A stretch of DNA of 64,000 nt from Halobacteriovorax sp. (GTDB lineage: Bacteria; Bdellovibrionota; Bacteriovoracia; Bacteriovoracales; Bacteriovoracaceae). A program made the position numbers and the translations under genes. Shown piece after piece: positions 21,848-24,931 of this stretch; position 1 is the first letter of the stretch; each line of letters opens with the position of its first letter. The notes beneath the pieces were generated by a model. That model saw only the letters and a list, made by a program, of their open reading frames with translations. It was not told the origin of the DNA and did no database searches. The stretch is taken from assembly GCA_002720865.1 (NCBI GenBank), contig PBIO01000014.1, positions 310,001 through 374,000 on the forward strand, read 5' to 3'.

Positions 21848-22861
21848 ATGGAAATAGATATCGAAACATCAAGTGACAGATTTTTATCTCCAGAAGGTAG
21901 TAGAGACTATAAGCAAGAAGAAAGACTAAGACCTAATAATTTCGATGAATTTATTGGGCAGAAAAGAGTTATCGAAAATATTGACGTTATGGTGAAGTCT
22001 TCAAATATGCGTGAGCAAGCAATGGATCATGTTCTACTTTCAGGACCTCCAGGTCTAGGTAAAACTTCACTGGCGATGCTTATTGCAAACTCTCTAAATA
22101 GTGAACTGCATGTGGTCTCCGGACCGGCCATTGAGAAAAAAGGTGACCTTGCGGCGGTTCTAACAAATTTACAACCAAGAGATGTTCTTTTTATTGATGA
22201 GATACATAGAATGCATATTTCGGTTGAGGAAATATTGTATTCAGCAATGGAGGACTTTAGGCTTGATATAGTTATCGGTCAGGGTCCAAGTGCTAGAACA
22301 ATGCAAATAGAAGTAGCCCCTTTCACTCTTATTGGGGCAACTACAAGATCGGGGCTTTTATCAAATCCGCTAAGGGATAGGTTTATGGCCCATCTCCATT
22401 TCGACTTTTATCAAAGTGAAGAATTAGGAAAAATAATTCAGAATAATTCAAAAAAATTGGATGTTGAATTAAAAGATGATGCTCGCCTTGAAATGGCAAA
22501 ATGTTCAAGAGGAACACCTCGGATTGCCAATAGAATCTTAAGGAGAGTGCGAGACTTTGCCTTAGTTGAAGGTCAGAGTTCAATAAGCCCTCAGCATGTA
22601 AAAAAATCATTAGATCTGATGGATATAGACAGTTCGGGTTTAGATAGAATGGATAGAAAAATACTTACAGTTATTAGGGATTACTATAATTGTGGGCCCG
22701 TTGGAATTGAAGCTCTCTGTGCAACCTTGGCCGAGGATAGAAGTACTATCGAGGATGTTTATGAACCTTTCTTATTAAAGGAAGGTTTTGTTTTAAGAAC
22801 ACCAAGAGGGCGCGAAATTTCTCAAAAAGCTAAAGATCATTTAGTTTCAATTGAAGTCTAA
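21848..22861 (+). CDS. ruvB: Holliday junction helicase RuvB
   Basis: A 337-residue AAA+ motor that drives branch migration. Walker A GPPGLGKTS (66-74) and Walker B VLFIDEIH (113-120) are intact, as are sensor 1 (FTLIGATTRSGLLS) and the arginine-finger region (NPLRDRF). The C-terminal winged helix ends in EPFLLKEGFVLRTPRGR. Length matches E. coli RuvB (336). It is the last gene of ruvCAB. Its stop overlaps the stop of a small opposite-strand gene. Confidence 0.98.
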   Translation: MEIDIETSSDRFLSPEGSRDYKQEERLRPNNFDEFIGQKRVIENIDVMVKSSNMREQAMDHVLLSGPPGLGKTSLAMLIANSLNSELHVVSGPAIEKKGDLAAVLTNLQPRDVLFIDEIHRMHISVEEILYSAMEDFRLDIVIGQGPSARTMQIEVAPFTLIGATTRSGLLSNPLRDRFMAHLHFDFYQSEELGKIIQNNSKKLDVELKDDARLEMAKCSRGTPRIANRILRRVRDFALVEGQSSISPQHVKKSLDLMDIDSSGLDRMDRKILTVIRDYYNCGPVGIEALCATLAEDRSTIEDVYEPFLLKEGFVLRTPRGREISQKAKDHLVSIEV

Positions 22862-22974
22862 TTAATTTTTGCAGCAACTCTTTTAATTTTCGAATCTGTT
22901 TCTTTCGAGTTTGTTTGCGAGGCTGCAAAAGTGATTAGTGCAAGTAGCACTACTAAGTATTTTAGGTATAACAT
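22858..22974 (-). CDS. 38-residue peptide with a signal/anchor segment
   Basis: A short frame on the minus strand starting MLYLKYLVVLLALITFAA and continuing with a polar, Lys/Ser/Thr-rich tail. The N-terminal hydrophobic run followed by F-A-A-S looks like a Sec signal peptide, or a single anchor with about 20 outside residues. GAGAG lies about 6 bp before the ATG. The stop overlaps the ruvB stop by 2 bases. Length is too short for homology judgement; the support is the non-random signal-like composition and a plausible start. Confidence 0.45.
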   Translation of the reverse strand: MLYLKYLVVLLALITFAASQTNSKETDSKIKRVAAKIN

Positions 22975-23128
22975 TTTTTCTCTCAATTAATGTGTGTAAG
23001 AACAATTCTCGTAGAAAAGGATGAATATCTAAACATGAAAAAATTGAAAAAATATTACAAATGAAGTGAATTGAGTAAGAATATCCAAAATGGCGCCAAG
23101 ATTATGACGCCTCGATTATAATTTTTAT
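22975..23128. other. AT-rich intergenic stretch
   Basis: About 150 bp between the FecR-like gene and the 38-residue peptide gene, both on the minus strand. It is A/T-rich; I see no convincing terminator or other gene in it. It probably contains the promoter of the peptide gene. Confidence 0.4.
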
Positions 23129-23785
23129 TTAATCGTAGTCCTTATCTAATAAATCCGTATAGGCAGACTCAATAGAGACTTTATTTACGAGGTCGCCTGA
23201 CTTGGGATTCATATTCCAGTTTAGTTTTCTCGTCCACTCAAGCGGTTTTGGTTTTGATGTGTCGGTTCCATTTTTTACAACAATACCTTCGCCTTCTTTA
23301 ACTAGCGTAGACTTTTTTTCGTTTTTAGATCTTACTGCAACAACTCCCTCATTCACACACATCCATACATCATTACCTGATCCATAGCTTGCAAAAAACT
23401 CAGTCCCTCTAACACCCATAGCCGCCGTTTTCGTTCGAAGAGTAAGTTTTGATTTTTGACCTTTTCTTAATTTTCCTTTTAACACTTTTATAAAAGAGTT
23501 TCCTCTTAGTAAGTTTAGTTTGGTCGAATCATCTTTGGATTTAGGTAGTACTTTAATGACCATGACACTTTCAGGTCCAAGCTTAACTTTGTTTCCTTGG
23601 GGTAAATGCAATACTGCAAGTGAGTCTTTCCCCGTTGTAATGCGATCTCCAGCTTTAATGACCTGGTTCTTCTTTAGCTTTGTAGATTTTCCAATCTTTA
23701 CAACACCCTTCGTGAAAATCACTTTTCCATTCTCGGCGAAAACTTAAAAACTAAAAAATAAAGAAAGTACTACTAAGAAATTCAT
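23129..23785 (-). pseudogene. FecR-domain protein with a stop codon in its signal peptide
   Basis: The intact body (about 195 residues) is a FecR-type domain: DRITTGKDSLAVLHLPQGNK, then VKLGPESVMVI and TKTAAMGVRGTEF. These periplasmic domains sense or scaffold at the cell envelope. In the same frame upstream is a clear signal peptide from an ATG at 23785: MNFLVVLSLFFSF, then TAA (23744-23746), then VFA-EN as a normal cleavage site. The ATG has GAGGT 5 bp upstream and shares ATGA with the thioesterase stop, so it is surely the original start. As written, only an internal start (GTG at 23722, weak GGA upstream) could give the body, and it would stay in the cytoplasm. Confidence 0.75.
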
Positions 23786-24213
23786 TCGGACCTCGTTTTT
23801 ACAACAGCTAAAGTTAGTTTTGATGAACAAACCAAGCGGTCGCGGTCATCATATATATTTGTATCCCATACTTGAATCGTTTTACCTAAATGAATAGGTT
23901 TAGTTATTCCCTTAACCTCACTTCCTTCAATAGCTGGTCTTAAGTGATTGGCCTCAATTGAAATACCGAAAGCGACATATTTACTTTGATCTAAAACCAT
24001 ATTTGCAGCTATCGAAGCCAAGCTTTCTGAAAGTACGCAGCTTACACCACCGTGAAGCCTTCTTTGTGGCTGAACAGTTCTGTGATCTACCGGCATTGTT
24101 CCGGTTAGGGAATTATCGGCGGCTTCAACAATTTCTATTCCATTATGATCAACGGCCGTATTTTTACACCAATCATTTATTTTTTTTAAGTTGGGCTCTT
24201 TAAACCAAATCAT
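23782..24213 (-). CDS. Hotdog-fold thioesterase (PaaI/EntH-like)
   Basis: A 143-residue single hotdog domain. VDHRTVQPQRRLHGGVSCVL is the family core: the Gly-Gly after His starts the long helix, and LSESLASIAA carries the expected acidic residue. HLRPAIEGSEVKG and HLGKTIQVWDTNI are the following strands. Family members cleave acyl- or aroyl-CoA thioesters; the substrate is not predictable. The ATG at 24213 overlaps the upstream stop by 1 bp (TAATG), which makes it more likely than in-frame ATGs at 24222 or 24255. Confidence 0.85.
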   Translation of the reverse strand: MIWFKEPNLKKINDWCKNTAVDHNGIEIVEAADNSLTGTMPVDHRTVQPQRRLHGGVSCVLSESLASIAANMVLDQSKYVAFGISIEANHLRPAIEGSEVKGITKPIHLGKTIQVWDTNIYDDRDRLVCSSKLTLAVVKTRSE

Positions 24214-24617
24214 TAATCCCATCCCAAGACTTGATAACCTTGTTTTGATAAACAATGGTTCACATATCTTTGTTTAAGTTCATCTGGACTCATGGCCCCT
24301 GCAACAGCTCCACCAGCTCCGCCCATGGCGGCACCTTGAGCAGCACTTCCAGCAATATCGCCTGTAAATATTCCGGCCACACCGCCGACCACTCCACCAA
24401 GCAGTGCTCCTGCACCACCAGATTTTAACATTTTTTTGGCCTTGGGAGACTTTAGAAACTTATCAGCCTTATCCATGCAGATTTTTGTATCGTGCTTTGC
24501 CCTTTCTTCTCCCACTGATTCAAACTTATCATTAGGGTATAGAACGGGTTTACTAGAACATGAGCTAAATAAAATTAATATACAAAATACAACATAACTA
24601 CTTGATTTTAAGTGCAT
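24213..24617 (-). CDS. Glycine-zipper lipoprotein
   Basis: A 134-residue predicted lipoprotein. GGAGGAG just before the ATG at 24617 fixes the start; an upstream in-frame start at 24683 is not needed. A signal peptide (MHLKSSSYVVFCILILF) leads to S-S-C. After a charged stretch comes a glycine-zipper segment (about 67-108: GGAGALLGGVVGGVAGIF, then GSAAQGAAMGGAGGAVAGAM), which probably inserts in the outer membrane. A short C-terminal helix carries two Cys in the form H-C-L. Such proteins often affect envelope stability. The function of this one is unknown. Confidence 0.7.
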   Translation of the reverse strand: MHLKSSSYVVFCILILFSSCSSKPVLYPNDKFESVGEERAKHDTKICMDKADKFLKSPKAKKMLKSGGAGALLGGVVGGVAGIFTGDIAGSAAQGAAMGGAGGAVAGAMSPDELKQRYVNHCLSKQGYQVLGWD

Positions 24618-24931
24618 TGCTCCTCCGTAAGTACCTAATAAGAGTAACTTATTATGGGCCAGATTGAGAATAAATAGTGGCATTTTTAGAGAAATGCCTT
24701 AGTAGAATACTCTAGAAAAGTGTCAAAACCCTTTGAAATTAGGAATATTTACATAAATTCGCAATTTTTTTCCCTTCCTAGGAGTAGATTTGATACAAGG
24801 CTGTCGTATATAAATCGGGAATATTTACCGCTTTAATATCCGTGAAGCTGGGTAGTTTATACTGATACTGTGTGTTGCCAATAGTAAAACCAGCACATTA
24901 GAATAACTGAATACTTAAATTTGGAATTTAA
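24618..24931. other. Divergent intergenic region before lpxC
   Basis: About 310 bp separating the minus-strand lipoprotein gene from lpxC. It holds a good sigma-70-type promoter for lpxC (listed separately) and presumably the promoter of the lipoprotein operon on the other strand. I see no gene or RNA structure in it. Confidence 0.6.
24875..24904 (+). promoter_or_regulatory. Predicted sigma-70 promoter of lpxC
   Basis: TTGCCA (24875-24880), an 18-bp spacer and TAGAAT (24899-24904). Both boxes match the consensus at 5 of 6 positions. It would give a leader of about 20 nt before the lpxC ATG. Confidence 0.5.

Follow-up and report, generated by a model that had tools for sequence, protein, structure and literature searches.

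In a 64,000-nucleotide stretch of DNA from a marine predatory-type bacterium (hereinafter, the window), the gene for a small exported protein carries an internal in-frame stop. Considering that the stop falls within the signal peptide and is followed by a complete FecR domain, the question arises whether the gene is being lost, whether the stop is bypassed or even exploited, or whether the sequence is in error.

An interrupted signal peptide in front of an intact FecR domain

Minus-strand translation from the ATG at 23785 bears out the initial annotation of a TAA at codon 14 that cuts the signal peptide: the translation of 23129-23785 reads MNFLVVLSLFFSF*VFAENGKVIF...DLLDKDYD*, where the terminal stop is the TAA at 23131-23129 (Table 1). 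The context of the internal stop is T-rich (TTTTTTAGTTTTTAAGTTTTC), with runs of five and six T next to the TAA. The claim that the FecR domain after the stop is intact also holds: the 204 open codons match PF04773 with an E-value of 1.5e-11 and a score of 45 bits, well above the Pfam gathering cut-off of 24, which places the protein in this family. The start of the gene was correctly described as overlapping the upstream TGA within an ATGA and as having GAGGT just before it: GAGGT is separated from the start codon by 4 bases, and GAGG by 5.

Table 1. Features of the FecR gene and its operon (window coordinates)
Feature	Position	Strand	Remarks
Glycine-zipper-like lipoprotein gene	24213..24620	-	First gene of the unit
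Hot-dog thioesterase gene (PF03061)	23782..24231	-	Upstream gene; ATGA overlap with the FecR gene
FecR-domain gene	23129..23785	-	Third gene in a unit of three; complete reading frame with a single internal stop
Codons 1-13, signal peptide before the stop	23747..23785	-	Translation: MNFLVVLSLFFSF
In-frame TAA, codon 14	23744..23746	-	Closest relative has a serine codon here
VFA, end of the signal peptide	23735..23743	-	Signal peptidase I-like site by inspection; unchanged in the nearest relative
Open frame after the stop, 204 aa	23132..23743	-	FecR domain (residues 33-135) and conserved C-terminal segment
GTG, only possible in-frame start near the stop	23720..23722	-	Nearest relative has GTT; ribosome-binding match is poor
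Terminator-like hairpin after the FecR gene	23092..23111	-	Similar sequence in G001 and G002

A search for the family yielded unambiguous full-length orthologues from 14 genomes belonging to the same bacterial family. Because these proteins align across both the signal peptide and the mature part, the interrupted frame is not a product of chance, and the combination of an interrupted signal peptide with an in-frame FecR protein is confirmed as a real observation. The signal peptide is uninterrupted in all 14 orthologues and the stop is present in none of them, as expected for a recent (incipient) pseudogene, which would also lack a functional product. The closest orthologue, which is 86% identical, comes from a Halobacteriovorax sp. 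MAG (contig JAIBDQ010000080.1; hereinafter G001), the only relative returned by the species-level collection. G001 shares the ribosome-binding site and the ATGA overlap with the window, and the alignment of the two gene starts contains no gained or lost bases. Comparison with relatives had been proposed as a check in the initial annotation, and it yields a sense codon in the nearest relative and an upstream signal peptide throughout. The accompanying statement that a single base change would restore the gene is valid for some sense codon but not for the serine codon of G001, which differs from TAA at two positions.

The signal peptide shows a second departure from the family. In the window, it starts with MNFLVV and has no lysine or arginine among the first six residues, whereas at least one is present in each of the 14 orthologues. 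Quite apart from the stop, this loss of the N-terminal positive charge weakens the export signal, although signal peptides evolve rapidly and some function without such a charge.

Selection on the mature part of the protein

The mature part of the gene was under selection in the past: dN/dS against G001 is 0.044 (with dS of about 2.3, synonymous sites are near saturation), a value comparable to or slightly above those of the operon neighbors and one that, at about 0.04, points to strong purifying selection. The window protein retains all 24 residues that are invariant across the other 14 orthologues, and its mature part contains no further stops or frameshifts. In simulations, about 60 random substitutions (0.1 per site) produced an extra stop in 95% of the trials; since no such stop is present, either the internal stop is young compared with the divergence from G001, or selection has continued to preserve the frame since this stop appeared. 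The low dN/dS mostly reflects the time before the stop and therefore cannot by itself demonstrate that the gene is now non-functional. We also considered relaxed selection since the split from G001 and rejected it: the excess of amino acid changes on the window lineage (10 vs 4) is weak (p = 0.18), and the two neighboring operon genes match this pattern (9 vs 4).

A probable recent nonsense mutation

Taken together, these observations are probably best explained by a nonsense mutation that arose recently in this one lineage, where it is either fixed or still segregating, and that interrupts the Sec signal peptide of a small exported protein with a FecR domain. Through translational coupling with the thioesterase gene, synthesis would start at the ATG and end after 13 residues, leaving no exported FecR protein or only traces of it; the healthy look of the downstream frame would mean that there has been too little time for visible decay. 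The FecR product is thus presumably lost, and the gene may be an incipient pseudogene, perhaps still polymorphic in the species. Among the options offered in the initial annotation, a recent loss of export fits best: the signal peptide is preserved in all relatives, no damage is seen elsewhere in the gene, and the missing charge is a further defect of the export signal. The annotation further argued from the lack of decay to an event that is recent or a stop that is functional; only the first is needed.

Bacterial genes commonly carry short-lived in-frame stops (Belinky et al. 2021, PMC7918605), so this class of event has already been described in bacteria and calls for no new mechanism. The window gene resembles the cases in that study in its single in-frame stop, preserved frame, dN/dS well below 1 and lack of other damage, but differs in that the study covers only stops common to at least two species, whereas the window stop is found in one genome and lies within a signal peptide. 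It offers a clear-cut case of a gene at the point of inactivation or shortly past it, with intact and well-conserved relatives.

Sequencing error

The initial annotation also raised the possibility of a sequencing error. If the stop were an error of base calling or assembly, the true sequence would have a sense codon and the gene would be normal, and both the confinement of the lesion to one codon of an otherwise intact, conserved gene and its T-rich surroundings are compatible with such an error. However, when 240 kb of a further genome, G002, were compared with 224 kb of the window genome, five of the resulting 207 orthologous frames were flagged, and the FecR stop, which the complete alignment of the beginning of the gene with G001 bears out, is the only clear mid-gene stop. 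In three of the other flagged frames, the stop falls no more than 16 alignment columns from the start or six from the end, which reads as wrongly chosen start or end points; the remaining one contains a possible frameshift in a short ORF. With about one candidate among 207 frames, the assembly in this region appears to be accurate rather than noisy. Furthermore, the lesion is a substitution, unlike the length errors typical of homopolymers, and the nearby loss of positive charge, which somewhat lowers the likelihood of an isolated base-calling error, would have to be an unrelated coincidence. We consider an error possible but rather unlikely.

Restart, readthrough and phase variation

Next in plausibility, albeit improbable, is a restart by termination-reinitiation at the GTG, which would give a leaderless FecR protein that works or is tolerated in the cytoplasm. 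This codon, replaced by GTT in G001, lies 21 bases past the stop and inside the first predicted strand (residues 6-12), so that most of the domain would survive; the product would miss the export signal and, according to the predicted structure, the first two residues of that strand. At -3.3 kcal/mol, however, the ribosome-binding match is no better than random (median -2.9 kcal/mol), G001 has the same value, and the family is built for export, as indicated by the signal peptides of all 14 orthologues.

Functional low-level readthrough of the TAA, which would keep a little exported protein, appears quite improbable. The frame is intact downstream of the TAA, and for some in-frame stops with dN/dS below 1 readthrough is the favored interpretation (Belinky et al. 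2021, PMC7918605). Nevertheless, an intact frame and low dN/dS past a stop do not alone demonstrate readthrough, which has no support here. Most tellingly, the stop is conserved in no relative. In addition, TAA is the commonest stop among the genes of the window (44 of 62) and is followed by G in 14 of these 44, making TAAG an ordinary terminator; none of the 39 tRNA genes listed has a UUA anticodon; and the RNA around the stop and downstream of it folds no more stably than shuffled sequences (z +2.3 and -0.4). Thus, the hallmarks of programmed stop-codon recoding, namely a conserved stop and a stimulating element or suppressor tRNA, are missing, and this suggestion of the initial annotation is not sustained. 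An alternative code is rejected given that most genes of the window end in TAA.

It is hardly probable that selection keeps the stop as a valve by which readthrough or restart at the GTG would convert the exported FecR protein to a cytoplasmic or low-level version. The phase-like switch suggested initially, in which the gene would be turned on and off, is extremely improbable: T tracts do adjoin the stop, but a one-base slip shifts the frame without removing the stop, so that no single slippage restores the gene, and the surroundings contain only short, weak matches to invertible or direct repeats, with no simple repeat and no close inverted repeats, that is, no repeat tract or invertible element that could toggle the frame.

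As a separate observation on tRNA genes, six of them (L074, L075, L077, L081, L084 and L098; Gly, Pro, Asn, Arg, Met and Lys) are clustered at about 37.7-48.7 kb of G000:C16. Most of their anticodons also occur elsewhere in the genome, and the cluster could possibly belong to a mobile element or a contaminating contig.

The FecR family and the genomic neighborhood

The gene affected by this probable nonsense mutation encodes a protein whose structure is predicted with confidence (mean pLDDT 84.6). In a Foldseek search, the predicted fold matches FecR-type periplasmic domains (4m0h, 4m0n and 6ovk, E-values 6e-9 to 8e-8). The window protein shares the FecR domain, by sequence and fold, with these proteins (4m0h and 4m0n, a putative anti-sigma factor, and 6ovk, the C-terminal domain of PupR) but has neither an anti-sigma N-terminal domain nor a membrane anchor; instead, it consists of one exported domain with a conserved C-terminus of its own, encoded next to a thioesterase and a lipoprotein. 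FecR-type anti-sigma regulators are defined by a cytoplasmic anti-sigma domain, a TM helix and adjoining genes for an ECF sigma factor and a TonB receptor. An assignment to this class is rejected, given the single exported domain and the thioesterase, lipoprotein, ruvB and lpxC genes as neighbors. A FecR-like region is also shared with the adhesin-named FecR proteins of Leptospira (NCBIfam models Lsa33, Lsa19 and LipL45, E-values 2e-17 to 2e-9), but the scores are far under the curated cut-offs (e.g., 63 vs 420 bits), so the window protein is not a member of these models.

The genome contains 12 other FecR hits, the strongest only 30% identical, and thus no close backup paralogue. A literature search for FecR in Bdellovibrio found nothing. 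The domain and the operon partners suggest a periplasmic or envelope role for the exported protein. The segment that follows the FecR domain is kept in the orthologues (W-T-x-x-L-N-W ... Y-x-D-x-x-x-x-D-Y-D). This segment defines a distinct exported FecR subfamily in the same bacterial family, for which NCBIfam has no specific model.

G001 and G002 share the gene order lpxC, lipoprotein-thioesterase-FecR, ruvB with the window, and the short contig of G034 retains the part from the lipoprotein gene to ruvB. Between the terminator of the FecR gene and the end of ruvB, we detected an unlisted 38-aa ORF (22858-22974, minus strand; MLYLKYLVVLLALITFAASQTNSKETDSKIKRVAAKIN). Well conserved in G001 and G002 and without a match in NCBIfam, its product resembles a signal peptide or membrane peptide followed by a short tail.
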